From: Paraglaciecola marina
GTDB taxonomy: Bacteria; Pseudomonadota; Gammaproteobacteria; Enterobacterales; Alteromonadaceae
DNA length: 64,000 bases
Assembly (NCBI RefSeq): GCF_004360155.1
Contig: NZ_SAIS01000001.1
Location: forward strand, 1 to 64,000
Reading direction: 5' to 3'
Shown here: one piece after another, positions 3,801-19,458 of the stretch
Layout of the letters: each line of letters starts with the position of its first letter
How positions within the stretch are numbered: the stretch's first letter is position 1
Translations under genes and position numbers: made by a program
Notes under the pieces: generated by a model
Database searches by the model: none
What the model saw: the letters and a program-made list of their open reading frames with translations, nothing else
Told to the model about the DNA's origin: nothing

Positions 3801-4460
3801 TTAACTTTCATATTCGAGTGGGTCGCTAACCTGATTCTCACTAAAGGCTTCTAGCCTTTCTTGGCAAGCGCCACACTTTCCACAGGCTTTTTCGCGGCCG
3901 TTATAACATGTCCATGTTTGGTTGTAGTCTAAGTTCATTTCTAACCCAGCCGTTAAAATTGCGGTTTTACTGACGTCTAGGTAAGGCGTGACAATTTCGA
4001 CAGCTTCATAGTTTGCAATGGCACATACGTCATTCATTTTATGTACAAATTCTGGGCGGCAATCAGGATAGATAGCATGATCACCTGAATGGGCACCATA
4101 GAATACTTTATTAGCATTAATCGATACCGCATAACCCACAGCCATAGATAACAAAATCATGTTACGGTTTGGCACCACTGTGGTTTTCATGCTGTCTTCT
4201 TCATAATGGCCTTCAGCTACATCAATATCAGATGTGAGCGAAGAGCCACCAATGAGTTGGTTTATAGCCGAAATATCAACAATTTTGTGGTGTACACCTA
4301 AATTTGAACAAGCTCTTGCGGCATACTCTAGTTCTTTTTTATGTCTTTGACCGTAGTCAAATGATAAGGCAAAAACGTCGAAACCTTGTTTAACTGCGAG
4401 GTTTAGGACAGTAAAAGAGTCCATTCCCCCGGAAAAAATAACCACTACCTTTTGTGACAT
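3801..4460 (-). CDS. queC: 7-cyano-7-deazaguanine synthase QueC
   Basis: Makes preQ0 from 7-carboxy-7-deazaguanine with ATP and ammonia, for queuosine in tRNA. The 219-residue cytosolic protein has the PP-loop SGGMDS (10-15), the family segment [24 protein letters not shown], and the C-terminal zinc ligands spread through [21 protein letters not shown]. Length is standard. It is divergent from queE across a 97-bp gap, so the two consecutive enzymes of the pathway share a control region. I see no preQ1 riboswitch in that gap. Confidence 0.95.
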
Positions 4461-4557
4461 GGGCTTTGCTTCTTTATAATCAGATAATAAGGTTTATTTT
4501 AAGTGATTTAACGGTGAATTCCCACAGCGGGAGGCAGCTAGATCCAAAGGAAAGTAA

Positions 4558-5232
4558 TTGAGTTTGTATAAAATTAATGAAGTGTTTGAGTCTTTACAAG
4601 GGGAGGGCAGTTATACAGGCCTTCCCTCAATTTTTGTACGCCTACAAGGGTGTCCTGTTGGGTGCCCTTGGTGTGATACTAAGCACACATGGGAAGTCGA
4701 CCCTGACTCAATAGCCACTAGCACTAGGGTCATGGCTGAAACCAGCGAGTCAAATAGTTGGTTTGAACAAACAGCGCAACAATTGATTGAGCTATTTGAG
4801 CGCTATGGTTATGTGGCTAAGCATGTGGTTATTACGGGCGGTGAGCCATGTATGTATGATTTAACCGAATTAACATCTTATTTAATTGGCCTTGGATACT
4901 CAGTTCAGATTGAAACAAGTGGCACCTATGAAATACATTGCCATAAAGGTACTTGGGTAACGGTTTCGCCTAAAGTGAATATGCCAGGTGGTAGGCCCGT
5001 ACTTAAAAGCGCCATGTTAAGAGCTAATGAAATTAAGCACCCAATTGCCATGCAAAAACATGTTGATGAGTTGGACCAAGTATTAAGCTTATTAGAGGAT
5101 GGGTCTACGCCACAAATTTACCTGCAACCGATTAGTCAGCAGAAAAGAGCCACAGAGCTTGCAATTAAAACCTGTATCGCCCGCAATTGGCGTTTGTCTT
5201 TACAAACCCATAAGTTTATTGGCATTGAGTAA
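4558..5232 (+). CDS. queE: 7-carboxy-7-deazaguanine synthase QueE (radical SAM)
   Basis: Converts 6-carboxytetrahydropterin to 7-carboxy-7-deazaguanine. The 224-residue protein holds the radical-SAM cluster as C32-x3-C36-x2-C39 in GCPVGCPWCDTKHTW, followed by VVITGGEPCMYD and VQIETSGT, both typical of QueE. The start is TTG 4558; AAAGG precedes it at a normal distance, and the residues after it (SLYKINEVFESLQGEG) align with the family N-terminus. The product feeds directly into QueC, encoded divergently. Confidence 0.95.
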   Translation: MSLYKINEVFESLQGEGSYTGLPSIFVRLQGCPVGCPWCDTKHTWEVDPDSIATSTRVMAETSESNSWFEQTAQQLIELFERYGYVAKHVVITGGEPCMYDLTELTSYLIGLGYSVQIETSGTYEIHCHKGTWVTVSPKVNMPGGRPVLKSAMLRANEIKHPIAMQKHVDELDQVLSLLEDGSTPQIYLQPISQQKRATELAIKTCIARNWRLSLQTHKFIGIE

Positions 5233-5325
5233 TTAAATATTGCAAAGTGTTAAGTTCGCCATGTGGCATTGGTTACCTATTTATTATGGTAAATATTAAT
5301 TGAAGTTTATCCTTGGACTTATTAT

Positions 5326-6204
5326 ATGAGTTTTTTATATAAAATCAGTACGTTACAAATATTTACGCTTATATTGGGGTTTAGTTGCAGTGATACCAAT
5401 GGTGCATCTTGGAAAATCACTTATCCAAGCCCAGATGTCGATTCAGATATTATGACGACTTACCCTGTAGAGTTGTTAACCCTAGCACTGGATCAAACTG
5501 GGGTGAATTATGAGTTAAATCCTTCTAGTAACCAGTTAACTAAGATAAAAGCATTAAACCGTCTCGAAGATAACCGTGAGGTTAATTTAGTGTGGGGTAT
5601 GACTAGTATTCAACGGGAAGAGAATTTACACCCCATACGCATTCCTCTATTCAAAGGATTAATTGGATGGCGGCTATTATTAATACGTGACGATATGTCT
5701 GAGCGTTTTAAATATATTCAAAGTCTAGAGCATTTGATTAAATTATCACCTGTCCAAGGAAGAGATTGGCCAGATACAAAAATACTAAGATCTAACGGAT
5801 TCGACGTAATAGTTAACCAAGGGCAGGGTAATCTTTTAAATATGTTAGCTACAGCGCAAGGAGATTTTTACCCCCGTTCATTAGCTGAAATTTGGCATGA
5901 ACTCGAATCCCTTGAAGGAACTAAAGGGTTATCTGTTCAACCAACATTGGGGATACGTTATCCTGCCGCTGTTTATTTTTTTGTGAACAAAAATAATAGC
6001 CCTCTAGCACATTTGATTGAAGTAGGTTTAGAGAAAGCCATTAAAAATGGTAATTTTGAAGAATTGTTTTTGAAAACCTTTCAGGGTTACATTGAAAGAG
6101 CAGATTTGAAAAATAGAAATTTTTATTACTTAGAGAATACTTTTTTACCTAAAGACACACCTTTGCAGCGTGAAGAGTTGTGGTTTCAACAGGAGCACAA
6201 ATGA
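5326..6204 (+). CDS. Orphan periplasmic substrate-binding-like protein
   Basis: A 292-residue protein with an N-terminal hydrophobic signal segment (about 8-20). Its body resembles the two-lobed type 2 periplasmic binding fold of solute-binding family 3 (ASWKITYPSP near the start, and a C-terminal PLAHLIEVGLEKAIKNGNFEELF typical of those proteins). The fold assignment is moderate and no ligand can be named. No permease or ATPase is nearby, so it may serve sensing or a non-transport role. Its stop overlaps the start of the next gene (ATGA), so the two are translationally coupled. Confidence 0.6.
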   Translation: MSFLYKISTLQIFTLILGFSCSDTNGASWKITYPSPDVDSDIMTTYPVELLTLALDQTGVNYELNPSSNQLTKIKALNRLEDNREVNLVWGMTSIQREENLHPIRIPLFKGLIGWRLLLIRDDMSERFKYIQSLEHLIKLSPVQGRDWPDTKILRSNGFDVIVNQGQGNLLNMLATAQGDFYPRSLAEIWHELESLEGTKGLSVQPTLGIRYPAAVYFFVNKNNSPLAHLIEVGLEKAIKNGNFEELFLKTFQGYIERADLKNRNFYYLENTFLPKDTPLQREELWFQQEHK

Positions 6205-6611
6205 ATATTTTACTAAAACAAATGGTAAAGTTAACGTCATGCTTAGTGGTGTGCTCTATAACCAGTAGTTGTTCGGTATTAGGTTTTGCCGCTGATATTG
6301 GGCTGGCTAATGTATTAGAGCCGGTTCGAGATGCGAATACCAATGCTACTTCAAATCAAAAGGTCGTGAACCGTTCTCGTAACCAGTTTCCACTTGTTTT
6401 CACCGTTGAGGGAATGAAACAAGACGCAAAAATTATTAGTGGTTTTTTGGGCAGCTATAAAGCCAGCGCTTCGGATACTCAAGAGAGTGAATCACAACCA
6501 CAAAAAGTCACTGGCTGTAACCATGTGATTGAAGGCAAACAGCAGTGTTACCCTAGTAGTTATTATCAAGATATGTATATTAAAACTAGTAGCGGCGAGA
6601 AAGAATTTTAG
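6201..6611 (+). CDS. Putative lipoprotein coupled to the binding-like protein
   Basis: The start at ATG 6201 is supported by AGGAG seven bases upstream and the ATGA overlap with the preceding stop. The product has 136 residues. The signal peptide (MNILLKQMVKLTSCLVVCSI) runs to a lipobox ending at Cys24 (TSSC). The mature part is Ser/Gln-rich and contains a C-x(n)-C pair (VTGCNHVIEGKQQCYPSS), which could be disulphide bonded. No known domain. Coupled expression with the upstream binding-like protein suggests they act together at the envelope. Confidence 0.6.
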   Translation: MNILLKQMVKLTSCLVVCSITSSCSVLGFAADIGLANVLEPVRDANTNATSNQKVVNRSRNQFPLVFTVEGMKQDAKIISGFLGSYKASASDTQESESQPQKVTGCNHVIEGKQQCYPSSYYQDMYIKTSSGEKEF

Positions 6612-6690
6612 CGGTACCGCGAACCTTTTCTAGGTTCAAGGCGAGATATTAAACACTCTATTAAATTAAGGTTGAGGTGGGATGAAAAGT

Positions 6691-6727
6691 TCCCAAGGGG
6701 CTGTTAGTGCCAACCCCTTGGGATTTT
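6691..6727. terminator. Stem-loop terminator between convergent genes
   Basis: Perfect 10-bp stem TCCCAAGGGG/CCCCTTGGGA with a 13-base loop. It is followed by TTTTATC on the plus strand and ACTTTTC on the minus strand. It lies between the lipoprotein gene and the end of the gatB-aspS fusion and could serve both. Confidence 0.75.
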
Positions 6728-6744
6728 ATCAAGGTAGCTTGATA

Positions 6745-9700
6745 CTATTTTTTCTTGATCACTGTAACGTTCATTTCTTCGACTTTTTTGTCGGATAAGA
6801 GTGATGGAGCGTTAAAGAGTAAGTCTTCGCTGGTGCCTGTTTTCGGGAACACCATAACTTCACGAATAGAGTTTTTCTTACCTAACAACATCATTAGACG
6901 GTCAATACCCCAGGCGATCCCGCCATGTGGTGGCGCGCCATAATGGAAGGCTTTATACAAAGTACCCACACTTTTCAGCATCTCGTCTTTGTTGTATCCC
7001 ATGTTTTTATAGGTCGCTTCTAATATCTCAGGTTTATGGGCACGGACTGAGCCCCCACCAATTTCGTAACCATTTAGCACCAAATCGTATTGCTGGGCGA
7101 TGATAGTGCCAATTTCGTCGTCTTTGCCGTTCATGTGTTTCTCTATGTCGGCAATAGCTGGCATCGAGAACGGGTTGTGGGTAAAGGTCCATCTGCCATC
7201 ATCTGTTTTCTCAAACATAGGGAAATCAACTACCCATGCCGGTCGCAGCTCTTTAGGGTCGATTAACTTGAGCATTTTGCCAAGCTCTTGGCGCACTACA
7301 TCCAAGGCCTTGTTTGCCACGGCATAACTGGCCGCCGAGAAAAACACCACGTCGCCAACTTGGGCGTCGCTAGCTGCAATTATTTTAGCTGCTATGTCTT
7401 CCCCTAAAAATTTAATGATTGGCGATTGCAGATCGTCTTCGTTGACAAATATATACGCAAGTCCACCCAGGCCATTTTGCTGGGCCAGAGCTGTAAGGTT
7501 TTCGATTTGTCCTTTGGATAAACGCTTACCGCCTTGTTCTTCGGCAGACACCTTAATGCATTTAACAATACCGCCTTGTTCAATTGGCTTACTGAACACT
7601 TGGAAGCTGGTATCTTTAACAATGTCAGTGATGTCTTGCATTTGCAGGCCAAAACGCAAATCAGGGCGGTCACATCCGTATTTATCCATGGCGTCTTTGT
7701 AAGTGATGACTGCAAAGTCATGTAACTTCCATTTTTTACCATAAATTTTTCTCACCACTGTATTAAACATCTTAGTGTTTAAGTCGATGATATCCTGCAT
7801 GCTGGCATAGGCCATTTCGATATCTAATTGGGTAAACTCTGGTTGACGGTCGCCCCTTGAATCTTCGTCTCTGAAACAGCGGGCTACTTGGAAGTACTTT
7901 TCGTAACCGCTGACCATGATCATTTGTTTAAACTGCTGGGGGGCTTGTGGCAGCGTATAAAATGCGCCCGCTTCTTTGCGACTTGGTACAATAAACTCTC
8001 TAGCACCTTCATCGGTTCCAGCACTTAAGATAGGCGTTTCCATTTCTAAGAAGCCTTCATCATCAAGCATATCTCTAATGAGTTTGATCACCTTATGGCG
8101 GTCGATAATGACTTTGCGGACTTCTTTGTTTCTGTGATCTAAATACTTGTGCTGAAAGCGAATGTTTTCGTTGGTTTTTGTGGCTCTGGCGATTTCAAAA
8201 GGCAAGCTTCTCGCTAGGTTTAAAATCTCTAGCTTGCTTGTTTCAAGCTCAATAGTACCGGTTCTTAAACCAGGGTTGTAATCGTCTTCTCGGCGCTGAA
8301 CTACGATACCAGTCGCTGCTATCACCGATTCAGCTTTTAAGGTAACTAGTTCATCAAAGTTAGGGAAGCTTTCACGACTCAAGCGTACTTGGAATATTTG
8401 GTAGCTAGAATCACGCAAATCGATGAACATTAAATCACCGTGATCTCGGACACTGGCGACCCAACCCGACAGGGTGACTTCTTGAGAAAGTGATTGCTCT
8501 GATAATTCAGATATTTTATGGGTACGATAGTGATTTTTAACAATAAGTGGCGTTTCAGGCAGCACTTCTTCTGCTTGTTTCACGCTTTGCTTGTCGCTGC
8601 CTTTTACTGTGTTTTGCACATTGTCGCTAGATGCCGAGGCATTACTGCTGCCAGAGGCATTCACAGCGTTTAAAATACCTTCTCGAATGACTTTACCCGA
8701 CGCGCCTTTACCAATAATGGCAATGACTTTACCCACTAGAATTCCGGCTTTACCTTGGTTACCGGCTTTTATGTCGCTGGCAATGGCGGCATTATTCTCG
8801 ATAACAGTATCAATCGCGTCAGCTATTTGCTGTTCTGAAATACTGTTTTCTTGGAAGTACTTTTTATAATCAAAACTTGCGTCTTTTAAATATTCGCTAA
8901 CGGCTTTTTGTACCAATACTGAGTTAACTTTACCGTCTTTAAATTGGCTGAAAATATCCGTAAGCACTGCCGTGTCATGGATGTTTTTGTAGTCGTCAGC
9001 CGGGATCACATTCACTAAGGTACGGGCGATAAATAACGGGTCTTTTAGGACATGGTTGATATCCATAAAGGTTTTGGCACGCACTGCTTCAGCCGTAAAA
9101 AACTTAGCATCTTGGGGCACTACACCCCCTTCGATCAAGATAGACTCAATGGCAAAAGGTAAGGTCTCTAAATCCACTTCAATTGCGCTGACTACCTGTG
9201 AAATATCCACAAAGGGTAAGTCTGGCTCAGAGATAAAACGGTAATCCGCTTCAAACTCTTTTTTACGCATGACTTTAGTTTGTTTTAGTTCTTCATCCCA
9301 TAGCACTGTGGTTTGGTCAGGGCGAAATACTTCGTGCTCAATATAATAGTTAAGCTGTTTTTCAACTTCTTCTTTTAACGATTCGACCATAAACTTAAAT
9401 GAGTTTAAGTTTTTGATTTCAGTTCGTGGGTTGAGGTCGTTGGTATGTCTTTTACGCAAAGACACAGACACATCTGACTTAAACTCACCTTTTTCAAGGT
9501 TAGCCTCAGAGATACCAATACCTTGCACTATACGCTGAATATATTGAGCGTAGGTAGACGCATCTTCGATGTTGCGCATACAAGGATCTGTCACGATTTC
9601 AATAAGCGGCACGCCTGCTTTATTGAAATCAACCAAAGATACATCTCGTTCATGCATAAGCTTAGCGGCATCTTCTTCAATATGTACTTGAGTTAAACTA

Positions 9701-10089
9701 ACGGTAAATTGTGAACCATCTTTACGGAAACACGACACTTCACCATCTGGGATTACCGGATTATGAAATTGGGTGATTTGAATATTTTTGGGATTGTCAG
9801 GATACTCGTAATGTTTACGGTCCCACGAAATCACCGGATTGCTAAAAGTAGACTTAACTGCTTTGCCGAAATAAATGGCTTTAGTAATGGCTTCTTTGTT
9901 GATGGCAGGTAGTACACCCATTTGCCCGGTACACACAGAACAGATATTGTGATTAGGCGTATCAGACTCTTCATTTGGACACGCACAAAATAACTTAGTT
10001 TTAGTGTTTAAGCGCACATGAGTTTCAAGACCAATAACCAGTTCTAGGTCGTGTTTTTCGAGTAAATCGTTTAAATAATCCAGTTCCAT
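6745..10089 (-). CDS. gatB-aspS: Fused amidotransferase subunit GatB and aspartyl-tRNA synthetase
   Basis: One uninterrupted frame of 1114 residues. Residues 1 to about 477 are GatB: VIGLETHVRL, zinc ligands C35, C37, C50 and C53, KAGVPLIEIVTDP, YRFISEPDLPFVD, and a YqeY-like tail ending GKVIREGIL. A Ser/Asn/Lys-rich linker (about 478-515) follows. Residues from about 516 are a full bacterial AspRS of about 600 residues: the OB-fold anticodon domain (GWVASVRDHGDLMFIDLRD), motif 2 (CFRDEDSRGDRQPEF, about 738-752), the GAD insertion, PAWVVDFPMFE, and motif 3 (GGIAWGIDRLMMLL, 1056-1069). His550 sits where non-discriminating AspRS have His. In the known indirect pathway AspRS makes Asp-tRNA(Asn) and GatCAB amidates it. 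The start codon overlaps the gatA stop (TAATG). The fusion would place both steps in one chain. Confidence 0.95.
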   Translation of the reverse strand: MELDYLNDLLEKHDLELVIGLETHVRLNTKTKLFCACPNEESDTPNHNICSVCTGQMGVLPAINKEAITKAIYFGKAVKSTFSNPVISWDRKHYEYPDNPKNIQITQFHNPVIPDGEVSCFRKDGSQFTVSLTQVHIEEDAAKLMHERDVSLVDFNKAGVPLIEIVTDPCMRNIEDASTYAQYIQRIVQGIGISEANLEKGEFKSDVSVSLRKRHTNDLNPRTEIKNLNSFKFMVESLKEEVEKQLNYYIEHEVFRPDQTTVLWDEELKQTKVMRKKEFEADYRFISEPDLPFVDISQVVSAIEVDLETLPFAIESILIEGGVVPQDAKFFTAEAVRAKTFMDINHVLKDPLFIARTLVNVIPADDYKNIHDTAVLTDIFSQFKDGKVNSVLVQKAVSEYLKDASFDYKKYFQENSISEQQIADAIDTVIENNAAIASDIKAGNQGKAGILVGKVIAIIGKGASGKVIREGILNAVNASGSSNASASSDNVQNTVKGSDKQSVKQAEEVLPETPLIVKNHYRTHKISELSEQSLSQEVTLSGWVASVRDHGDLMFIDLRDSSYQIFQVRLSRESFPNFDELVTLKAESVIAATGIVVQRREDDYNPGLRTGTIELETSKLEILNLARSLPFEIARATKTNENIRFQHKYLDHRNKEVRKVIIDRHKVIKLIRDMLDDEGFLEMETPILSAGTDEGAREFIVPSRKEAGAFYTLPQAPQQFKQMIMVSGYEKYFQVARCFRDEDSRGDRQPEFTQLDIEMAYASMQDIIDLNTKMFNTVVRKIYGKKWKLHDFAVITYKDAMDKYGCDRPDLRFGLQMQDITDIVKDTSFQVFSKPIEQGGIVKCIKVSAEEQGGKRLSKGQIENLTALAQQNGLGGLAYIFVNEDDLQSPIIKFLGEDIAAKIIAASDAQVGDVVFFSAASYAVANKALDVVRQELGKMLKLIDPKELRPAWVVDFPMFEKTDDGRWTFTHNPFSMPAIADIEKHMNGKDDEIGTIIAQQYDLVLNGYEIGGGSVRAHKPEILEATYKNMGYNKDEMLKSVGTLYKAFHYGAPPHGGIAWGIDRLMMLLGKKNSIREVMVFPKTGTSEDLLFNAPSLLSDKKVEEMNVTVIKKK

Positions 10090-11489
10090 TATAGTGTTTC
10101 TTCTAGCAAGTGAGCGAACTGTAAAACACGCTCATCGTCGGTTTTAGCTGCTGTAATTTGAATACCTGTAGCGGTACCATGGGGCACGGTTAAGGTGGGC
10201 AGTTGCCCTAGACTAAATCCAACTGTGAAGGCATCGGATAAATACATAGCCATGGGATCTTTAAGACCGTCTCCCACTTTAGGCGGTAAGCCTGGTGTCA
10301 CCGGCGATAACACAATATCCACATCATTAAAAAAGCCTTCGAAATCTGCAGAAAGCTTGTCTCGAACCGCCAAACTTTTAAGATAAATGGCGTCTGAGAA
10401 ACCCTGAGATAACACTTGGTTACCGCCAACTATTCTGCGCTTGCTCTCTTCGGAAAAATTCTCAGAGCGGGTCACTGCATAACTTTCAATTAAGTTTTCT
10501 GCCTCGATACGATTACCGTAATTGGTGCCATCTAGTCGTGACAGGTTAGATGCGGTTTCTGCCATGGCTAAAATGTAATAGGTTGAAATTAACGCCTCTG
10601 CATCTATGAAATCGAGAGGTTTAACTTCTATTCCTTTGGCTTTTAATTTTTCAAGGGTCGCCATAAAGTCAGCTTTAATAGATGCGTCCATCGCATCGTT
10701 TTCAAGCAGGTTTTTAAAGTAACCAACTGTCTTAACACTGCCAGTATCCGCTAACCCAGCTTCATTTATTGGCGCTGACTCATAGGTCGTTTGGTCTTTA
10801 ACATCTTTGCCACTTATAGTGTTAAGCACAATGCGGATATCTTCTACGCTTTTTGCTAACGGGCCCACGCAATCGGTTGAGGAGGCATAAGCCATTAAAC
10901 CATAGCGAGAAATACGACCATAAGTTGGCTTTAAACCATATACTCCATTGTAACCAGCGGGTTGTCGCACTGAACCACCTGTATCGCCACCGATTGAAAA
11001 TACCGTATAGTCCTTAGCGACATTTACCGCTGAACCACCACTTGAACCGCCTGCCACTAATGCCGAATCTTTGGCATTGTTAACTGGGCCAAAAATACTA
11101 TTTTCATTAGATGAACCATGACCAAAGCTATCACAGTTTTCTTTTACAATTGGAATCGCCCCCGCATCGATAAGCTTTTGAATCGCACTTGCGGTATACG
11201 CTGATTTATATTGTTTTAGAAAATCAGAACTGGCAGTGGTAAACGTGCCTTGTAGCATAAAGACATCTTTGACCCCAAAAGGTATGCCTTCCAGTAGTCC
11301 TATGTTTTCTCCATTAGCAATTTTTGTATCCACTGCTTGGGCTTGTTTTAGTGCGTTTGCATCAAGCAAAGCATTAACACTGCCGTGGGAGTTTTGTTTT
11401 AGCAAATCGAGTCGTTGCTGAACTAAATCAACACAGCTAATTTGCTTGCTGATTAATTGTTGGTGAATGTGTTTTATTTGAGATTGCAT
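10089..11489 (-). CDS. gatA: Aspartyl/glutamyl-tRNA amidotransferase subunit A
   Basis: The glutaminase subunit of GatCAB: it hydrolyses glutamine and passes ammonia to GatB. It has 466 residues of the amidase-signature family. The Ser-cisSer-Lys triad is visible as K74 (GIPFGVKDVF), S149 (GGSSGGSA) and S173 (GDTGGSVRQP), each about five residues earlier than in the well-studied S. aureus enzyme. The stretch VYGLKPTYGRISRYGLMAYASS is typical of GatA rather than of general amidases. It lies three bases after gatC and overlaps the gatB-aspS start by one base, a tightly coupled operon. Most gammaproteobacteria lack GatCAB and rely on GlnRS and AsnRS, so the operon is probably acquired. Confidence 0.94.
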   Translation of the reverse strand: MQSQIKHIHQQLISKQISCVDLVQQRLDLLKQNSHGSVNALLDANALKQAQAVDTKIANGENIGLLEGIPFGVKDVFMLQGTFTTASSDFLKQYKSAYTASAIQKLIDAGAIPIVKENCDSFGHGSSNENSIFGPVNNAKDSALVAGGSSGGSAVNVAKDYTVFSIGGDTGGSVRQPAGYNGVYGLKPTYGRISRYGLMAYASSTDCVGPLAKSVEDIRIVLNTISGKDVKDQTTYESAPINEAGLADTGSVKTVGYFKNLLENDAMDASIKADFMATLEKLKAKGIEVKPLDFIDAEALISTYYILAMAETASNLSRLDGTNYGNRIEAENLIESYAVTRSENFSEESKRRIVGGNQVLSQGFSDAIYLKSLAVRDKLSADFEGFFNDVDIVLSPVTPGLPPKVGDGLKDPMAMYLSDAFTVGFSLGQLPTLTVPHGTATGIQITAAKTDDERVLQFAHLLEETL

Positions 11490-11492
11490 AGG

Positions 11493-11786
11493 TTAGGCTT
11501 CTATTACTTTTGCCACGACTAAATAGCCGTTTTTTTCTTGAGGAAAGTTTTCTACTATGAGCTGTTTTTCTAAGTCACTTGCTTGAACAACCATGTCTTC
11601 TCTAAGCTGTTCAATAGGTACTGCGTTCTGATTATTATTACCCGATGAGCCAGTAGTCGATAAATCAGAATTTTTAATCACTTCAAATAACTTATTAATT
11701 GTCTCTGAAGGCTTTGCGCCTTTAATACTCGACAATACATCGACAGTCATAGTTTTATTCATTGTTATTTCATTACCTTGTGGCAT
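11493..11786 (-). CDS. gatC: Aspartyl/glutamyl-tRNA amidotransferase subunit C, divergent
   Basis: A protein of about 97 residues that normally wraps around GatA and GatB and stabilises the complex. The C-terminal half fits GatC (VPIEQLREDMVV, then a segment ending in KNGYLVVAKVIEA, compare the usual LREDEV and GFFRVPKVLE). The N-terminal half is unlike standard GatC and has a Ser/Gly/Asn-rich spacer (STTGSSGNNNQN). The start is uncertain: ATG 11786 has a weak ribosome site, and ATG 11762 has AAGG 13 bases upstream. The call rests on the C-terminal motif and the position before gatA. Confidence 0.8.
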   Translation of the reverse strand: MPQGNEITMNKTMTVDVLSSIKGAKPSETINKLFEVIKNSDLSTTGSSGNNNQNAVPIEQLREDMVVQASDLEKQLIVENFPQEKNGYLVVAKVIEA

Positions 11787-11815
11787 TTTCGTGCAATAAG
11801 CACATCTAACTAACC

Positions 11816-11847
11816 AAAAAAAACCTTCCGGATTTGGAAGGTTTTTT
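11816..11847 (-). terminator. Attenuator terminator in the gat leader
   Basis: On the minus strand a perfect 10-bp stem AAAACCTTCC/GGAAGGTTTT with loop AAATCC runs into eight T. It sits between the Asn-rich leader peptide and gatC, about 30 bases before the gatC start, so it is a premature terminator of the operon rather than the end of another gene. Confidence 0.85.
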
Positions 11848-11880
11848 GTTTTTAAATACTGAGAAACCTTCCGAACCTAA
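11820..11880 (-). promoter_or_regulatory. Alternative antiterminator pairing
   Basis: The segment GGAAGGTTT lies 6 to 14 bases after the leader stop codon (plus positions 11863-11871) and is a copy of the 3' arm of the terminator. It can pair over nine bases with AAACCTTCC, the 5' arm of the terminator, excluding terminator formation. A ribosome at the leader stop would cover the segment and let the terminator form. A ribosome stalled on the earlier Asn codons would leave it free. This is the classical amino-acid attenuation layout; the switching is inference from sequence. Confidence 0.75.
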
Positions 11881-11930
11881 TAGTTAAGATTATTACCATT
11901 CCAATTATTATTTAACGCGTTGTTTAACAT
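11877..11930 (-). CDS. Asn-rich leader peptide of the gatCAB-aspS operon
   Basis: A 17-codon frame translating to MLNNALNNNWNGNNLNY and ending in TAG; 9 of 17 residues are Asn, including runs of two and three. AGAG lies nine bases before the ATG. The stop codon is immediately followed by the antiterminator and terminator arms. In known attenuators (his, trp, thr, leu, phe) the leader is rich in the amino acid whose charged tRNA controls the operon. Here that would be Asn-tRNA(Asn), the product expected from GatCAB plus AspRS. An in-frame upstream TTG could lengthen it, but the ATG is better placed. Confidence 0.82.
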   Translation of the reverse strand: MLNNALNNNWNGNNLNY

Positions 11931-11972
11931 TACATTTGGCTCTATTAGGTACAGGTGGTTGAATTGCAAAGA

Positions 11973-11978
11973 AGTATA
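11973..11978 (-). promoter_or_regulatory. Candidate -10 box for the gat leader transcript
   Basis: TATACT on the minus strand (five of six consensus) lies about 43 bases before the leader ATG. No convincing -35 hexamer sits 16-18 bases upstream, so the promoter is tentative. Confidence 0.35.
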
Positions 11979-12181
11979 CACTAATTCCTATACCAAATTT
12001 ACCATTTTTAATGGCTGTTTGGAGCATACCTTATGCACTTTTTTATGAAGCGTTCGCTTTGTTTATTTATGCGCTGTGCTTATTTTTATTCTCTTCGTTT
12101 ACGGGCCATAGCTTCGCCACAGAGCATTCGCTGCGCTCATGGCATCCATGCCTTTTTTCAAACAGCATCCTTGCTGCTCGA

Positions 12182-12230
12182 TTTACTTTTTGCCAACAGC
12201 AGCAAAAAGTAAACAAAAAGTGCCGCGCTC
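12182..12230 (+). repeat. Hairpin repeat family, copy 1
   Basis: A perfect 12-bp stem TTTACTTTTTGC/GCAAAAAGTAAA around CAACAGCA, followed by CAAAAAGTGCCGCGCT. Related copies are at 12491-12538 and, inverted, at 15942-15986. All share a loop with AACAGC or its complement and a following AAAAAG(G)CCGCGCT-like block. Confidence 0.65.
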
Positions 12231-12490
12231 CACAAAACTCTTCTCCCAATTTTAATTGAAATTTAGCAGGTCGCTTTTCATGCGTTCCCGACGCACAAAA
12301 ACTCAATTGGCTATCCATGCCAATTGCCCTACTAAATTTTCAATAAAACTGGCGAGTATTCAGTCACGAAAAAATCAAAAGCATGCGCTTCGCTCACTGT
12401 CATCTCGGTAACTGCGTCCTGCGTTACCCTACCTTCCACCATCCTTGGTGGTTCCATGACATTTTTCACTCTAACCCCTTTGAGCTAGTG

Positions 12491-12538
12491 ACTCTTTCTT
12501 CAACAGCCAAGAAAGAGTAACTAAAAAAAGGCCGCGCT
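12491..12538 (+). repeat. Hairpin repeat family, copy 2
   Basis: A perfect 10-bp stem ACTCTTTCTT/AAGAAAGAGT around CAACAGCC, followed by AACTAAAAAAAGGCCGCGCT. The stem sequence differs from copy 1 but the pairing is kept, which suggests the folded form is what is preserved. Confidence 0.65.
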
Positions 12539-12751
12539 ATAACCAAGTTCTTATGCCTGCGCGACTTGTCAAATGCAGGCCGCAATGATTTGTTCAGTAC
12601 AATTTATTGCTTCAATTATACCCTTGTAATTTATCCTGTATTTGCCCACCTTGCTCAGCGAACTTGGATACGCGATAAAATCAAAAGCATGGCTAAAGGA
12701 GTGGGTATGTGGTTAGTAAACATACAAAAGAATAGATAGAACTTGTAGGTT

Positions 12752-14060
12752 GGGCTTTAGCCTGAAGAATCCCCACAGCAATGAATAGTAAGTGATTGAA
12801 ATTTGGTATTATTTATTTCACAACAAAATAACAATAACCAAACTCAACCACTATGAAAGTACTATCAGATTTATTTACCCTAGATTCAAGTGTGTTAGAC
12901 CCTCGCATTACCACATCACTTTTTACTGCAGCCAAGAGTGTTGTAAATGGCTCAGTATTAGCTTTAACGGCATTAGGTCGCAATGTGGCTAGCGATAATG
13001 GTGTAATGGAGAAACACAGTATCAAACGCGTTGATAGATTGTTAGGCAACCCTCGTCTACACGATGTTATTCCACAGTATTATCAAATCATTCAGAAATT
13101 ATTTATTACTGAGAAACATCCGTTGATCCATATTGATTGGTCAACGGTGTACAACTATAACTTCGTGATGTTAAGAGCGGCCATCTCGATTAAAGGTCGA
13201 GCCATTGCATTGTATGAAGAAGTTCACCCTGAAGAGCAACATGCTCAACCAGCGATCCATAAAAAATTTCTAGTGGCACTGGCTAAACTATTACCGGCTG
13301 ATTGCGAACCTATTATCTGTACTGATGCAGGGTTTAAAATACCTTGGTTCAAGGAAGTACAACGATACAATTGGTATTGGCTGGCCAGAACGCGGGGCAC
13401 GGTGAAATGTAAATTTGAAACAGAAGAAGAGTGGCATTACGTGAGTCATTGCCATGCTTGGGCAACATCCAAAGCTACCGAACTTCCTCCTTTCGCTTTG
13501 TCTAAATCAAGTCAATATAGTTGTCGTGGGGTGTTGTTCAAAGGTAAGAGCCAACAACGACATAATCTAAATCGCAAAGGTGTGGTGACGAAAGACAATA
13601 TTAATAAGCGTCATAGTAAGTCTGCCAAAGAGCCATGGTTTCTAGTATCAAACCTCCCTGAAACTCAATACCCACCTCACCAGTTGGTAAGTTTATATAA
13701 GCGCAGAATGACTATCGAAGAATCGTTCAGAGATTGCAAAAATGAATATTACGGACTGGGATTATCGCGCAGTCTAAGTCGTTGTGAGAAACGACTACAA
13801 GTTATGTTACTGGTGGCAATGATGGTACAGTTTTATCTATATTGTGTTGGTAAAGCGGCTGAAAATCAGGGATACCATCTGCACTTTCAAGCCAACACCA
13901 TCACTAATAGAAGAGTGTTATCCTATGGATACTTGGGATTAAGGCTTATTAAACATAGGCGTTATGATGTTTCAAAGGAAATGATACTTGATGCAATAAA
14001 GGCTCTTGTGGAGGATGCGAAATGTTCATGAGCCTGTGGGGATCCTTCAGGCTTTAGCCC
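12752..14060 (+). mobile_element. IS4-family insertion sequence
   Basis: About 1.31 kb with terminal inverted repeats of about 28 bp: left 12752-12779 and right 14033-14060, matching at 24 of 28 positions (shared core AGCCTGAAG and ATCCCCACAG). It holds a single transposase gene. I see no convincing target duplication in the flanking nine bases, so the copy may be old or the ends may extend a little further. The outer ends read GGGCTTTAGCC, like the REP-type palindrome at 56101. Confidence 0.85.
12853..14031 (+). CDS. IS4-family transposase
   Basis: A 392-residue DDE transposase. The triad is D95 (HIDWSTVYNYN), D158 (ICTDAGFKIPWF) and E289. The IS4 signature Y-x2-R-x3-E-x6-K is exact as Y282, R285, E289 and K296 (YKRRMTIEESFRDCK). 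N-terminal residues 1-80 are the DNA-binding region seen in the IS10/IS50-like group (SIKRVDRLLGN). Length and the 1.3-kb element size fit. The frame is intact, so the enzyme may be active. The stop lies just before the right inverted repeat. Confidence 0.93.
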   Translation: MKVLSDLFTLDSSVLDPRITTSLFTAAKSVVNGSVLALTALGRNVASDNGVMEKHSIKRVDRLLGNPRLHDVIPQYYQIIQKLFITEKHPLIHIDWSTVYNYNFVMLRAAISIKGRAIALYEEVHPEEQHAQPAIHKKFLVALAKLLPADCEPIICTDAGFKIPWFKEVQRYNWYWLARTRGTVKCKFETEEEWHYVSHCHAWATSKATELPPFALSKSSQYSCRGVLFKGKSQQRHNLNRKGVVTKDNINKRHSKSAKEPWFLVSNLPETQYPPHQLVSLYKRRMTIEESFRDCKNEYYGLGLSRSLSRCEKRLQVMLLVAMMVQFYLYCVGKAAENQGYHLHFQANTITNRRVLSYGYLGLRLIKHRRYDVSKEMILDAIKALVEDAKCS

Positions 14061-14128
14061 ATCAGCTTATGTAGCGGCGATTATTTTGTTGTTTTTAGTG
14101 GAGTTAAAAATAGACTGATTCAATTTAT

Positions 14129-14339
14129 GTCATTGTTTTTAATAGAGTTAAAGTGGTGGCTGCAAATATAATATTCTGTATTTATCCAAAGTAGTGGTTT
14201 CTATATGGCCAGCCAATAAAAATTCCCCTTTGAAAACCAATAAGTATATGAAAAGATGAAACAAATTAATTGCCAGAATCATTATTCCGTTTATTCCTAA
14301 AGTGGCTTAAACGTGCGGTCTGGCTAATATACTGTTATG
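14129..14339 (+). repeat. 211-bp upstream module, copy 1
   Basis: First of three related copies (others 52547-52756 and 55821-56031, both on the minus strand). Shared landmarks in gene orientation: CATTGTTTTTAATAGAGTTAAA at the far end (quoted in part), CTGTATTTATCCA, CCCCTTTGAAAACCAAT, GAAAAGATGAAA, ATCATTATTCCGTTTA, then GGCTTAAACGTGCG and AATATACTGTTA. It ends 27 bases before the start of the nuclease-like gene. A stem is present here: GCCAGA 14272-14277 with TCTGGC 14319-14324, and CGTTTA 14288-14293 with TAAACG 14308-14313. Confidence 0.85.
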
Positions 14340-14365
14340 TTTCTGAAAGGAGTCTTTGATAATTC

Positions 14366-15763
14366 ATGGCGAAGAGAAAAATATTAACCATCGGATTTTC
14401 GCTTTGTGATGAAGCTACCGAAAGCTGTGACTTTAACTCTGATCTATCTCTGCTAGATTGGGATATTATTCTATTTAAACCAGATATAAGCGATTTTTTA
14501 AGTTATGAATACACATACAAAGGCAAGCCCTGTCTTTCTGACGACAGCTCCTTTCAGCTTAAGGAACAAGCTGAACATTGGCGTCGAGAAATAAAGGCAG
14601 CAGTAGAAAGTGGAAAACTGGTAATTGTCTATTTATCTGACTTAAACGAGATAAGCATTGCAACCGGGGAAAAAAGTTTTTCAGGCACAGGAAGAAATCA
14701 AAAGACAACAAGAATTGTTACCGATTACAACAATTACCACACGATCCCCTTGGATGTAAAGCCAGTAAAAACTAATGGTGTGGAAATAAAACTATCTGCA
14801 AAAAATTCTGAGGTGATATCAGCGTACTGGCGCGAGTTCTCATCTGTTTCCACATATAAAGTATTGTTAAATGATGAGATCAAGCCATGCTTGGTCACAA
14901 AGCATGGTGACAAGGCTGTTGGCACAATTGTAAGAACAAAGAACTCTACTGGTACTTTGGCGCTACTGCCTGATATTGATTTTTACTCACCCCAATTTTT
15001 TGATGAGGAAGACGAGTGGACTGCTGATGCAAAGCAATTTGCCGCTAGGTTTATTAAAACAGTTGTAGCACTTGATAAGTCTTTACGAGGTTCTGGCGAA
15101 GTAACTCCCGAGCCAGAATGGGCCAAAGAGATTGGGTTCAAGTTAAAAGAAGAAAGTATAACAACTGAAAAATTATTAAAAGTAGAGACAAAACTTGAAT
15201 CAATTCAGGCTGAAAAAGAGGTTCTTATTGGAAAAATTAAGGACTTAGGCCGACTTAGAAACTTATTGTTCGAAAAAGGAAAGCCATTAGAGTATGCAAT
15301 TCTAGATGCGCTAAAAATAATTGGTTTTGAAGTGTCGCAATATGAAGATGGCGAGTCGGAATTTGACGCTGTTTTTGAATCTAAGGAGGGGCGATTAATT
15401 GGAGAGGCCGAAGGTAAAGATAGTAAGGCTTTAAATATTGATAAGCTCAGACAATTGGCACTCAATATACATGAAGATTTGGAGCGTGAAGAAGTTGAAT
15501 CTCCTGCTAAATCCGTTTTGTTCGGGAATGCGTTTAGATTAGTTCCACTTGGTGAAAGAAGTGAGCCTTTTACTACAAAATGTATCTCAGCCGCGAGCAC
15601 TAGCTCAACTGCCTTAGTTTTTACGCCTGACTTGTTCCGGGTCGCAAAATATTTATCAGATAATCGAGATAGCCGATTTGCGACAAAGTGCAGGAAATCG
15701 CTCATGACCACCATTGGAAGAGTAGTGTTTCCAGAAACCCCAAAAATAGGAAGTAAGCCCTAA
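14366..15763 (+). CDS. PD-(D/E)xK nuclease-like protein with unknown N-terminal domain
   Basis: A 465-residue soluble protein. Residues 1 to about 245 form an alpha/beta domain I do not recognise (KILTIGFSLCDE near the start, LVIVYLSDLNE about 85-95). A charged coiled coil follows (about 262-295). The C-terminal part from about 300 looks like a restriction-endonuclease fold: GFEVSQYEDGESEFDAVF with D334, then GEAEGKD giving E349-x-K351, then a helix with KLRQL. GAAAGGAG lies about 13 bases before the start. The gene sits next to an insertion sequence and behind a 211-bp module shared with two other accessory genes. A defence role is plausible but not shown. Confidence 0.65.
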   Translation: MAKRKILTIGFSLCDEATESCDFNSDLSLLDWDIILFKPDISDFLSYEYTYKGKPCLSDDSSFQLKEQAEHWRREIKAAVESGKLVIVYLSDLNEISIATGEKSFSGTGRNQKTTRIVTDYNNYHTIPLDVKPVKTNGVEIKLSAKNSEVISAYWREFSSVSTYKVLLNDEIKPCLVTKHGDKAVGTIVRTKNSTGTLALLPDIDFYSPQFFDEEDEWTADAKQFAARFIKTVVALDKSLRGSGEVTPEPEWAKEIGFKLKEESITTEKLLKVETKLESIQAEKEVLIGKIKDLGRLRNLLFEKGKPLEYAILDALKIIGFEVSQYEDGESEFDAVFESKEGRLIGEAEGKDSKALNIDKLRQLALNIHEDLEREEVESPAKSVLFGNAFRLVPLGERSEPFTTKCISAASTSSTALVFTPDLFRVAKYLSDNRDSRFATKCRKSLMTTIGRVVFPETPKIGSKP

Positions 15764-15780
15764 ATATGTCACAAGGAATA

Positions 15781-15924
15781 AAAGGGGTCAGATCCAGATT
15801 AAGTACTATATTCTTGTAAATGGATATTTAGGGATGATTAAAAGTGCCAAGAAAACCAAGGGCATCTTTTATAGCATGGATGCGACTTATGCCCGATTCG
15901 ACATTAAAGGGTAGGTATTCTTAG
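15781..15924 (+). pseudogene. Remnant of a REP-associated transposase 5' end
   Basis: The sequence begins with GGGGTCAGATCCAGATTAAG, a form often seen just upstream of REP-associated tyrosine transposase genes. From GTG 15844 it encodes MPRKPRASFIAWM and stops at 15924 after 26 codons. MPRKPR is the usual start of that transposase family; the rest is missing. I read it as a broken end of such a gene. Confidence 0.45.
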
Positions 15925-15941
15925 GTTCAGAATGTTTGTGG

Positions 15942-15986
15942 AGCACGGGCCTTTTTGCATACTTTTTGCGACTGTTGGTAAAAAGT
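15942..15986 (-). repeat. Hairpin repeat family, copy 3 (inverted)
   Basis: ACTTTTT/AAAAAGT stem around a loop holding CTGTTGG, preceded on the plus strand by AGCACGGGCCTTTTT. Read on the minus strand it has the same order as copies at 12182 and 12491. Confidence 0.55.
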
Positions 15987-16023
15987 CTGTCGAGCCTCAG
16001 CAATTTATGCAGACATCCATGAT

Positions 16024-16050
16024 AATAAAAAGCCAGCAAAATGCTGGCTT
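16024..16050 (-). terminator. Terminator of the tubulin-like gene
   Basis: On the minus strand AAGCCAGCA/TGCTGGCTT forms a 9-bp stem with a 3-base loop, followed by TTTTTATTATC. It lies 52 bases after the stop of the tubulin-like gene. Confidence 0.8.
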
Positions 16051-16079
16051 AGAAACTGTCAACTTATTCTAGGATGGAA
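16047..16079 (+). repeat. 33-bp dispersed repeat, copy B
   Basis: Matches positions 1-33 at 29 of 33 bases in the same orientation. It lies between the terminator and the end of the tubulin-like gene. Confidence 0.6.
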
Positions 16080-16101
16080 TAAATCATTAATCCTAAAACT
16101 T

Positions 16102-18129
16102 TCAAGTGTTAAGTGTAAGTACACTTGTCTTACTAATACGATGACGATAAATTTCTCGAAGATATTTAATCGCATTCTTCACATGATTGACATCTAAACG
16201 AATATCGTTAATTGATACAAAGTTTTGCGGACTTTCGATTAACTCACGATATTTTTTCTCGTACATTGGTTTAATAGCATACCAATTTGTATCAAGAATT
16301 TTTGCTGGGTTTTCATAAGCCGTAAAATACTTGTCAATAATAGAATCATCAAATTCATCTTCTTGAATCATATTGATAATGGCTTGATCGATTTCATTTG
16401 TATACCGATACTCATCACGAGCAAAACAACGCTTCATATAAGCTACCATGAGAGTTAAAAAGTCATCACTTAAACAAGGGCTCTTAGCAATAAGTGTCGT
16501 CAAAGATAAGTTTGCCGATGCGCCTATTACCAATGCATAACGCTTCAAGGTTGTATTAGGAAACAGTTTATTCAAATGCATTTTTAGTCGATTTAATGCT
16601 GTGAACGACAACTTATAGTCTCGCGGTAAAGAGATAATCGATACGATAGACGAACAGTTTTTAAAGAAGTGCAAATGATTTAGTGTACTTGCATCAAACC
16701 CACTTTTTCGATATTCCTTAATGGCGTCACGGTACTTTTCTGATTCCACAGGCAGTACACTTACCCCTTCAATCGCAGAGGTGGCAGAGTTAAAATGCGG
16801 TAACTCTATAGAGCGGCAGAACAAATCATCTATATCTACGCTATCTTGGCGAACATCCTGATTCACTACACTTTCAGCATAAGCAATAGCGACAGGGCCT
16901 GCTAAGCTCATAAATAAGTCATTGGCATCAAGACGGATTGTTTCAGAGATATCAATACCCGCTCGACGGAAATAATCCTCATCATAATCGGTTGTGACAG
17001 CTTGAGCGGTAAGAATGTTAAAAATTTGCTGAGAAATGTACTGGTTTGCATATTTTTCCATTAAATTAACATCTATGCTATCAGCATCACCGCCATTTTC
17101 TTCTTCTGCATAACGCATTATATCGTTAGATATCAACATCATAGAGTTCCAAGGACGAATGCGCCCCATTACATCGGCTGGTAACTCGTCATTATTTCGC
17201 TCTTCATTGTAAGAAAAATTCCATTCTTCAGAGATATATTTTGTTAAAAGACGACCTGCATTGATGTGAAGGGCTTCAGATATATCTACATTTTTTCCTG
17301 ATATATTCGGTAATATACAAATACCAGACGTAAAAATAGGTTCAAATACAAAACTATGACGCTTGTCGGCAAGTTGATTTTGCCCCGAATGATAATCAAA
17401 TGTTTTACTGAGATAAGAAAACTGCTGTGCCAAACCAAATTCAGATGCCATACCCGAACCAGTCCCTCCTCCGGCACTAAATATATAGAAGTAAAGGCGA
17501 GATTGATTCGCTTTGATACCACACGAATCAACAAGATAAGAATGAAGTTGTCTCCATTCTTCATTTATAAAGGTTGTCGCATCTTTATTAAGAATAATTT
17601 TAGCTAAATACTGACCTAATATAGGTGCATTACCTGCTCCACCAGCATGAACCTCAGAAAGGTCCATAAACTGCAGCTTTTTATATTCCTCTAAAAACTG
17701 GACGCGACCTTCATCATTAGAAAAACGAATTCGGCCTTCTATGTCTTTATCTAAGTCGCCCAATAAAACAATTGGCTCAATGAGGAAAACAGGCTTAAAT
17801 CCTTCTTTATTCTCCATTGGTAAGTGCTTACGAATCCAGCGTAATGGACGAAATTCTTGCTCGTTATCCGTAAGATCTTCGTTTTCCACTTCTTTCATAT
17901 AATTCGCCCTTGCTTCATATACTAAAGAAGCAAGGTCTAACGCAATATTAGAACCACAGCGCCCTAAACCAATAAGACAAACAGAAGGAAAAAAACGATC
18001 TGTGACGTCTTCTTCATCTGTTATAGGAGGATGAATTTTGTTTCGGACGGCATCTAAGTTTCCTAAAATTTTTTCTAGATTTGTCTCTGTAAAATAGAGG
18101 TGTTCTATTGGCGTTTTTTCTTGGCTCAT
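16102..18129 (-). CDS. Large tubulin/FtsZ-like GTPase
   Basis: A 675-residue soluble protein with the nucleotide-binding motifs of the tubulin/FtsZ superfamily: an N-terminal Rossmann loop LIGLGRCGSNIALDL (53-67), HAGGAGNAP (161-169), and the diagnostic tubulin loop SAGGGTGSGMASEFGLAQQ with G220-G226 as GGGTGSG. Ahead of the loop is an insertion of about 100 acidic residues; a long C-terminal extension (about 450-675) has no domain I recognise. It is much longer than FtsZ (about 390) and is not cell-division FtsZ. Related non-canonical FtsZ-like families have been proposed to remodel membranes. It is monocistronic with its own terminator in an accessory region. Confidence 0.8.
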   Translation of the reverse strand: MSQEKTPIEHLYFTETNLEKILGNLDAVRNKIHPPITDEEDVTDRFFPSVCLIGLGRCGSNIALDLASLVYEARANYMKEVENEDLTDNEQEFRPLRWIRKHLPMENKEGFKPVFLIEPIVLLGDLDKDIEGRIRFSNDEGRVQFLEEYKKLQFMDLSEVHAGGAGNAPILGQYLAKIILNKDATTFINEEWRQLHSYLVDSCGIKANQSRLYFYIFSAGGGTGSGMASEFGLAQQFSYLSKTFDYHSGQNQLADKRHSFVFEPIFTSGICILPNISGKNVDISEALHINAGRLLTKYISEEWNFSYNEERNNDELPADVMGRIRPWNSMMLISNDIMRYAEEENGGDADSIDVNLMEKYANQYISQQIFNILTAQAVTTDYDEDYFRRAGIDISETIRLDANDLFMSLAGPVAIAYAESVVNQDVRQDSVDIDDLFCRSIELPHFNSATSAIEGVSVLPVESEKYRDAIKEYRKSGFDASTLNHLHFFKNCSSIVSIISLPRDYKLSFTALNRLKMHLNKLFPNTTLKRYALVIGASANLSLTTLIAKSPCLSDDFLTLMVAYMKRCFARDEYRYTNEIDQAIINMIQEDEFDDSIIDKYFTAYENPAKILDTNWYAIKPMYEKKYRELIESPQNFVSINDIRLDVNHVKNAIKYLREIYRHRISKTSVLTLNT

Positions 18130-18596
18130 GCGGCATCCTTATTCAAAGCAGTTTTTAAAAGAAGCTGTGTGTATTAGTAAATTAATAACAACTAAATATG
18201 TAGGCTAAGAAGTAACCGGATATCTAATTTTATTTCTACAAACATTATCATCCTTGTATGAAAATGACACTAATATGCTCAGTTGGAATATAAAATAAAT
18301 ACAAATTTTGTACAATTGAAGTTGACCAGTACATCCTGCGAAAGAATAAATAGTTATCATGGGGGCCCACCAAATTTATGCAATATGCCAATAATTTGAT
18401 GGGGAAATTGTAGCTGCAGTAGGTTAAAAGCATCGGCTTCGTCATTGATTAATCAAGAGTGTGAGGCAGCTAAACTGAGGTTGTAGTCGAGTGTTTGATT
18501 TGTGAGGCTCTCCCAGGCTGCGAGCCTATTGATTGAAAAGCCAAATGCAGCCTATATTTAGAGAACGCCTGATTGAAACGATTTTTATGAATATTT
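18130..18596. other. Intergenic stretch without a recognised feature
   Basis: About 470 bases upstream of the tubulin-like gene. No frame here has both a ribosome site and protein-like composition. I see no repeat copy or strong hairpin. It should hold the promoter of the tubulin-like gene, but I cannot place it. Confidence 0.5.
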
Positions 18597-19178
18597 CTAA
18601 AACTTAGATTTAAAATAAATGGATAAATTTCTGACTTTATTACTAATAGAAAGATTATCAGTTTGATAATCAATGTTTATGATTTTGTACTCTAATCCGA
18701 ACGCATCATTATCATTGTGATCATAATCTAGACTCAATGCATAATACACATTGTTATCATCTAATTGATTATTTTCATTGGACAGTGCTGTGGTATCTTT
18801 TTTTATATTCATCCTCCATGAAGAGACTCCTAAGTGGCCATATAAGGTAAAATTCTTCAGTAAATTTACCCCATACTTGATACCTATATCGAATGACTTT
18901 GTTGTTAAGTGGCTATCTTGTTCTATCGATTCTTCATCAATGTAACTACCGACAGACTCCTTGTAGTCATTTAAGGATAGTTCTAACTTTAAGTTTTCAA
19001 TTAACCTATATTCAGCTCTTATCCCTAGTGAAAAATCATCTCCTTTTACTGAATCATTACCATTAAAGCTTGTACGTTGATGTGACTGGCCTAGTGATAT
19101 ATCTAATGAAAGATCTTTAGAGGCAAGGGCGGAAAAAGATAAAGTTGTAAAAACAACACCTAAAAATAATATTTTCAT
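18597..19178 (-). CDS. Putative outer-membrane beta-barrel protein
   Basis: I chose ATG 19178 rather than the upstream ATG because GGA lies at a proper distance and the product then begins MKILFLGVVFTTLSFSALAS, a clear signal peptide. The mature part of about 175 residues is made of alternating amphipathic strands (for example LKLELSLNDYKE and NVYYALSLDYDH). It ends in a strand with terminal Phe (LSIYFKSKF), the usual signal for outer-membrane assembly. The size suits an eight-stranded OmpW/OmpX-like barrel. Ligand and role are unknown. Confidence 0.7.
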   Translation of the reverse strand: MKILFLGVVFTTLSFSALASKDLSLDISLGQSHQRTSFNGNDSVKGDDFSLGIRAEYRLIENLKLELSLNDYKESVGSYIDEESIEQDSHLTTKSFDIGIKYGVNLLKNFTLYGHLGVSSWRMNIKKDTTALSNENNQLDDNNVYYALSLDYDHNDNDAFGLEYKIINIDYQTDNLSISNKVRNLSIYFKSKF

Positions 19179-19384
19179 ACAGTTCCATTTAGAAAAAATA
19201 ATATGCAATTGTGTACTAGAAGCCTGTCAGTTTATGGCTAAATATTTTGCCATAAACCATTGGTTTAGTGAAGTATTTTAACTACATCGGGAGTCTCTTC
19301 TAAGTAGCCAAAATGTAATTCCACTTTATTTGGCAAGTCGTGCAGGTATTAAAATTTGGTCGGAGCGAGACTTTTCTCGTTTTT

Positions 19385-19423: not shown

Positions 19424-19458
19424 AATTCACAACGGATTACGCTGAACGAAGTGAATAA

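Follow-up and report, generated by a model that had tools for sequence, protein, structure and literature searches.

What does a short, asparagine-rich reading frame do immediately upstream of a set of amidotransferase and synthetase genes, on the minus strand of the 64,000-nucleotide stretch of DNA analysed here (the window)? The most probable answer, to which we assign a probability of about 0.85, is that it serves as the leader peptide of a ribosome-mediated attenuator of transcription, which senses how much Asn-tRNA(Asn) is available and governs a second, tRNA-dependent way of making it. The parts of the putative attenuator and the genes downstream of it are the following.

11973..11978, minus strand: -10-like promoter element TATACT, within AATTAGTGTATACT, identical in all four loci of the host's genus.
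11942..11960, minus strand: region 1, AACCACCTGTACCTAATAG, upstream arm of a possible protector stem in the predicted fold.
11877..11930 including the stop codon, minus strand: leader peptide frame, MLNNALNNNWNGNNLNY followed by the stop, with nine Asn codons; matching leaders occur in 53 flavobacterial loci and in three other genomes of the genus.
11864..11872, minus strand: region 2, GGAAGGTTT, 5' arm of the putative antiterminator, starting 4 nt past the leader stop codon.
11836..11844, minus strand: region 3, AAACCTTCC, common to the putative antiterminator and terminator.
11816..11829, minus strand: region 4 and U run, GGAAGGTTTTTTTT, 3' arm of the predicted intrinsic terminator (hairpin of -14.9 kcal/mol), whose stem covaries.
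11493..11762, minus strand: gatC, a divergent amidotransferase subunit C (TIGR00135, 21.7 bits, E 0.00019, cut-off 47.1).
10089..11489, minus strand: gatA, amidotransferase subunit A (Amidase PF01425, 373 bits; TIGR00132, 444 bits against an equivalog cut-off of 481).
6745..10089, minus strand: gatB-aspS fusion encoding 1114 aa (GatB at ~14-475 and AspRS at ~519-1113).

The leader frame starts with an ATG at 11930 and ends with a TAG at 11879-11877, and nine of its 17 codons encode Asn (ATG TTA AAC AAC GCG TTA AAT AAT AAT TGG AAT GGT AAT AAT CTT AAC TAT). When both strands of the window were scanned for frames of 10-30 codons with at least eight Asn residues and at least 50% Asn, this was the single frame found, and none appeared in 100 order-1 Markov windows. 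The GGAAGG copy at 11829-11824 is followed by eight T at 11823-11816. The pattern GGAAGG..CCTTCC..GGAAGG occurs once in the 4.6-Mb host genome; a search of 21 genomes gave 11 matches to it, spread over 10 of them and corresponding to ten gatC leaders and one ilvD leader, and its backward-read control gave no match in the same 21 genomes. The distal pair of repeats is predicted to form a 12-bp hairpin of -14.9 kcal/mol with a z-score of -2.9, equalled by 3 of 200 shuffles, and the whole 171-nt leader region folds with a z-score of -3.7, equalled by none of 200. In the minimum-free-energy fold of the whole leader, region 1 pairs with 11883-11874 and part of region 2. Upstream of TATACT (11973..11978), no convincing -35 box was found by eye.

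The sequence-only reading had described a 17-residue frame with nine Asn codons just 5' of the repeat module, a distal pair acting as a terminator with eight T and a proximal pair acting as a mutually exclusive antiterminator, in the full layout of amino-acid attenuation. The frame is read directly at 11930-11816 of the minus strand, the predicted hairpin and its covarying stem agree with the terminator, and the leader frame, predicted terminator, antiterminator and spacing from stop codon to region 2 that make up the layout are all found. The exclusive antiterminator also holds, in that 98.2% of its aligned cells are complementary, and its predicted folding is favoured only before region 4 is made.

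From these elements, together with the conservation, spacing, predicted folds and operon content described below, we infer when stalling, termination and readthrough would take place in the cell. With an ample supply of Asn-tRNA, the ribosome would pass the Asn codons, reach the stop codon and cover region 2, which lies 4 nt downstream; region 3 would then pair with region 4, and transcription would end at the U run. Under a shortage of Asn-tRNA, the ribosome would stall on the Asn codons and leave region 2 free to pair with region 3 while region 4 is still unmade, and the polymerase would read into gatC-gatA-gatB/aspS. Asp would be attached to tRNA(Asn) by the fused AspRS, and amidation of the product by GatCAB would give Asn-tRNA(Asn), relieving the stall.

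The leader is widely conserved. Of 84 loci, 82 allowed gatC to be placed (in L094 and L102 a contig end interrupts the locus), and a matching Asn leader with the repeat module precedes it in 57 of these 82, comprising 53 of 78 flavobacterial loci and all four of the host's genus. The other 25 flavobacterial loci have no Asn leader within 400 nt of gatC, and their fetched stretches contain no match to the leader model above 36 bits. Flavobacterial leaders typically end in NNNNNNFNNPNF followed by the stop, and in 20 of 53 an Arg or Leu stands in place of one Asn; leaders of the host's genus end in NN(A)xxNNWNGNNLNx followed by the stop, and their Asn, aromatic and stop positions match the flavobacterial ones. 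Counting codon columns back from the stop, -4, -5, -7, -9, -10, -11 and -12 hold Asn in 49-53 of the 53 flavobacterial leaders; AAT and AAC interchange in columns -10 to -12, and columns -4, -5, -7 and -9 are nearly always AAT. In 51 of the 53, a CCT at column -3 can pair with the TAGG at the stop (CCUA/UAGG), and a small hairpin around the stop codon of flavobacterial leaders is possible.

The upstream signals differ between the two groups. A TAnn(T/C)TTG element, which we take to be the Bacteroidetes promoter box, lies 13-23 nt 5' of the leader start in 53 of 53 flavobacterial leaders and in 7 of 203 background segments; in the host's genus its place is taken by AATTAGTGTATACT. The leaderless loci might be driven by a promoter of their own; 13 of these 25 have TAnn(T/C)TTG within 120 nt of gatC. 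A search of 51 genomes with the leader model, which used stricter filters than the locus count, yielded above 50 bits, among the matches listed, 33 gatC leaders (29 flavobacterial and four of the host's genus) and one leader at a contig end. Six of the other, lower-scoring matches were inspected and set aside, one being an Ile/Val leader before ilvD and five looking like unrelated terminators. The gatC locus of Polaribacter sp. Hel1_85 (L041) has no leader, yet the genome contains an Asn leader at the edge of a contig (L151, 1-97, minus strand), a pattern that suggests an insertion or an assembly break inside the leader region. Near asnB in the host's genus, no Asn leader was found at the thresholds used in five stretches (L116, L117, L118, L120 and L121).

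Covariation was assessed in an alignment (A1) of 56 of the 57 leaders, in which L050, whose frame is two codons longer, was left out and the 3' end is poor in several rows. The terminator pairs were complementary in 93.4% of cells, and 26 cells were changed on both sides, a number that none of 500 shuffles reached; three of the pairs showed two-sided change, as did at least as many in 128 of 500 shuffles. The antiterminator pairs were complementary in 98.2% of cells with no double change, and the shuffles were identical; when the antiterminator partner was slid by one column, pairing fell to 65-73%. Since the antiterminator stem hardly varies, covariation gives no evidence either way for it. 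The expectation that an alignment upstream of gatC in carriers of the fusion would show Asn codons and two alternative stems kept by covariation was therefore borne out in part: the Asn codons, spacing and stems are kept in 57 of 82 loci and the terminator covaries, and the antiterminator is kept without covariation.

The stop codon lies 3-5 nt before region 2 in all 55 parsed leaders, so that a ribosome at the stop would hide region 2 and stalling at the Asn codons would expose it. Folding was predicted for these 55 leaders (L083 and L097 were unparsed) in different ribosome states, with 15 nt protected, counted from the A-site codon, and the transcript cut 15 nt 5' of the leader start. With the ribosome stalled at codon -5 or -2 and the polymerase just past region 3, an antiterminator of at least 5 bp was predicted in 54 of 55 leaders; with the ribosome at the stop, the predicted folds contained the antiterminator in none and the terminator in all 55. 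Once region 4 was present, the terminator was predicted to be favoured in 49 of 55 leaders with the ribosome at codon -5, in 55 of 55 at codon -2 and in 54 of 55 without a ribosome, and in all four leaders of the host's genus in all three states. Since the predicted equilibrium favours the terminator even when a ribosome is stalled, the switch has to be kinetic, with the antiterminator forming first. This preference, the 25 flavobacterial loci lacking a leader and the absence of covariation in the antiterminator count against the attenuator reading.

Without any ribosome, and before region 4, the antiterminator was predicted to form first in 48 of 55 leaders and was missing in seven; in leaders of the host's genus folded from the likely start site, it formed first in four of four. 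This is unlike the usual default of trp-type attenuators in the absence of a ribosome. A protector stem between the 5' end of the transcript and the stop-codon region was predicted in all four leaders of the host's genus, only at full length with region 4 present; before region 4 exists, the antiterminator beats it. Such default antitermination would also suit an attenuator gated by translation as such, in which the operon is off only when the ribosome completes the leader and Asn is reported only in part. Because completion of the leader would be the sole condition for the off state, it would report any translation failure, including poor initiation, general starvation and ribosome-stalling compounds. 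A general sensor of this kind would have no need of conserved Asn codons that interchange between AAT and AAC, and we regard it as unlikely.

Less likely still is an ordinary intrinsic terminator before gatC that happens to follow an Asn-rich frame and exerts no translational control. A well-formed hairpin, AT-rich DNA and the absence of the leader from 25 of 78 flavobacterial loci would all fit an ordinary terminator; against it, 53 flavobacterial loci and four of the host's genus retain the codons, the second GGAAGG copy and the spacing between stop and stem, and the Markov windows speak against a chance frame.

T-boxes sense tRNA directly, and we know of no T-box that includes a translated Asn-rich frame. 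Direct sensing of uncharged tRNA(Asn) by a T-box or another RNA is highly improbable here, for although the Asn-responsive control of gatCAB in Clostridium is, by the titles of the papers concerned, a T-box, no T-box match reached the gathering threshold in the window and none was among the 44 matches that 11780-11990 gave up to E 5. None of the Rfam families searched, T-box included, reached gathering in the window, and the leader region and the L070 leader were also searched permissively. The peptide-leader families likewise stayed under gathering, the best being Phe_leader with 30.8 of the 55 bits needed in the window and 35.7 of 55 in L070.

The ribosome-mediated attenuator reading Asn-tRNA(Asn) accords with the content of the genes that it would control. 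The GatCAB-AspRS operon proposed 3' of the leader was recovered by profile matches as gatC, gatA and the gatB-aspS fusion. The fusion contains GatB_N, GatB_Yqey, tRNA_anti-codon, tRNA-synt_2 and GAD domains, matches NF004012 and NF001750 above cut-off and has an AspRS half of bacterial type. The gatC product had no match in a Pfam search and is 56-68% identical to the flavobacterial gatC products in the same place. GatA, GatB, GatC and AspRS are thus encoded together, with GatA and GatC under their NCBIfam cut-offs; the weak match of GatC and the sub-equivalog score of GatA mark both as divergent members. The fused AspRS domain has RDHG in all six aligned sequences, at a position where the host's ordinary AspRS has RDLG and two flavobacterial ordinary AspRS have RDKG. 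The His of RDHG may be a mark of non-discriminating enzymes. In the proposed route, the fused AspRS would charge tRNA(Asn).

The carriers have other means of making aminoacylated tRNAs. AsnRS was found above cut-off in all 51 carriers searched (L044 was not among them), and GlnRS in all 24 genomes, comprising 21 carriers and three non-carriers. In 21 of 21 carriers no GatB other than the fusion was present, and the three non-carriers have no GatB. With AsnRS and GlnRS present and the fusion as sole GatB, the operon is not needed for Gln-tRNA. AsnA was found in none of the 24 genomes; AsnB was above cut-off in seven of seven genomes of the host's genus and in seven of 17 flavobacteria, and below it in the other ten. 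The host genome keeps another asnB on contig C7, and since it has both AsnB and AsnRS, the operon is not its only Asn route. Loss of AsnB was considered as an explanation for the presence of the leader and rejected: among the 17 flavobacteria, AsnB is absent in four of six with the leader and in six of 11 without a leader before gatC. tRNA(Asn) has U1-A72 in the host genome and in one flavobacterium (G087), a pair given in PMC4206432 as a requirement for tRNA-dependent Asn synthesis. Taken together, these findings point to the operon as a second, tRNA-dependent Asn route, perhaps the main Asn source in many flavobacteria, and point to a backup role in the host genome.

The distribution of the fusion is narrow around the host. 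It was found at full length in four of 60 genomes of relatives, all within the 22 of the host's genus (G000, G003, G004 and G013), and the three other genus copies are 91-94% identical to that of the window. In this search, for which the best match of each genome is shown, the remaining genomes gave ordinary AspRS and related synthetases at ~38-42%, with a separate GatB in G051 and G057 among the matches listed. In genome contigs 338 relatives were found, and the best 80 of these 338 are all from Bacteroidota, nearly all from Flavobacteriaceae by their titles, with 76-79% identity to the protein of the window. In a quick protein tree, in which rows L052, L068 and L073 are meaningless (a wrong, longer frame with very long branches), the four copies of the host's genus group together as one clade, which sits on a long branch among the flavobacterial copies. 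No plasmid record covers 80% of the fusion and the viral contigs gave no match; among plasmid records, the ordinary AspRS of the host is nearest to gammaproteobacterial ones (Aeromonas, 67%; Salmonella; E. coli). Because the fusion is narrow within the host's genus and wide in Flavobacteriaceae, the operon and leader were probably acquired by horizontal transfer involving Flavobacteriaceae, in a direction that the sequences do not prove. Leader presence requires 11 changes on the protein tree, at least six of them forced, so that gains and losses of the leader are indistinguishable.

In G001, asnB sits between the queC/queE side and an M28-like peptidase (all three named by eye from translations); G002 has the same order with two extra genes between. 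In the window, the corresponding interval (3801-21105) holds the gatCAB operon, a transposase and other frames. The gatCAB-aspS operon occupies the interval that holds asnB in two relatives without the operon (L116 and L117), and it looks as if one Asn route has been replaced by another. A frame of 675 aa at 16102-18129 of the minus strand of the window contains a GGGTGSG stretch, which we take to resemble that of tubulin/FtsZ-like proteins.

How does the proposed control compare with known systems? It would be ribosome-mediated attenuation with a new amino acid, by the known mechanism of classical attenuators. As in the his, thr, phe, trp, leu and ilv attenuators, the leader frame is rich in the amino acid sensed; as in classical attenuators such as those of Rfam Phe_leader, His_leader and Thr_leader, terminator and antiterminator have one common arm, and the stop codon is set so that the ribosome masks the antiterminator. 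Unlike in these, the amino acid is Asn, the target is gatCAB-aspS and the protector stem does not win before region 4. The titles of papers from 2012 and 2013 describe Asn-responsive T-box control of a redundant aspS-gatCAB operon in Clostridium acetobutylicum, and a figure legend in PMC2494555 assigns a T-box to one of its three aspS genes. Both systems would place a redundant aspS/gatCAB route under Asn-related control, and in the present one the translated leader, not a T-box, would do the sensing. Since Asn-responsive control of aspS-gatCAB is known in Clostridium, the target is not new; the mechanism for this target is. According to PMC4206432, Bdellovibrio, Deinococcus and Thermus have GatCAB and AspRS alongside AsnRS and GlnRS. 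Like these, the carriers would combine tRNA-dependent Asn synthesis with AsnRS and GlnRS; they differ in having GatB and AspRS fused into a single polypeptide and an Asn leader in front of the operon.

The sequence-only reading knew of no attenuator described for asparagine or for gatCAB. This stands for the leader, as no paper on an Asn leader peptide before gatCAB was found in the open-licence literature, which leaves out most subscription papers; it does not stand for Asn-responsive control of gatCAB, given the Clostridium T-box. Parts of PMC9723704 report clues for leader-peptide attenuation before amino-acid operons in Flavobacterium psychrophilum, as well as structured 5' UTRs of its aminoacyl-tRNA synthetase genes, and Table S7 of that paper possibly holds an unlabelled Asn-leader case. 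Passages of PMC7366714 contain nothing on Asn. A fuller account, which we hold only tentatively and think somewhat more likely to fail than to hold in all its parts, is that this would be the first Asn-specific ribosome-mediated attenuator, sensing the direct product of the enzymes that it controls; that repression would be exerted by the ribosome finishing the leader and not by a protector hairpin, with antitermination as the default; and that the module would have crossed phyla with its operon, keeping its Asn codons but acquiring in the new host another type of promoter and possibly a protector stem.

If the main reading is correct, asparagine would be added to the list of amino acids to which leader peptides respond, and a translated leader would switch on a tRNA-dependent Asn route, kept as a backup, when Asn-tRNA runs short, a need that Clostridium meets with a T-box. 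It would also suggest what GatCAB may do in bacteria already equipped with AsnRS and GlnRS, draw attention to a GatB-AspRS fusion that many Flavobacteriaceae retain and offer a likely case of a regulator crossing phyla together with its operon.

Other leaders of the same bacterial family serve other amino acids and operons, namely Bacteroid-trp (RF01692) and an Ile/Val-rich ilvD leader. The latter, in Aestuariibaculum marinum (L153, 1726-1839), encodes MRNQILISISIIVIVIISQGWEGYC and carries the GGAAGG/CCTTCC/GGAAGG module before an ilvD-like gene; as the module is identical, one attenuator module may be reused with different codons. In Polaribacter vadi, a Bacteroid-trp leader (L032, 5746-5861, minus strand) lies close to the gatC leader.
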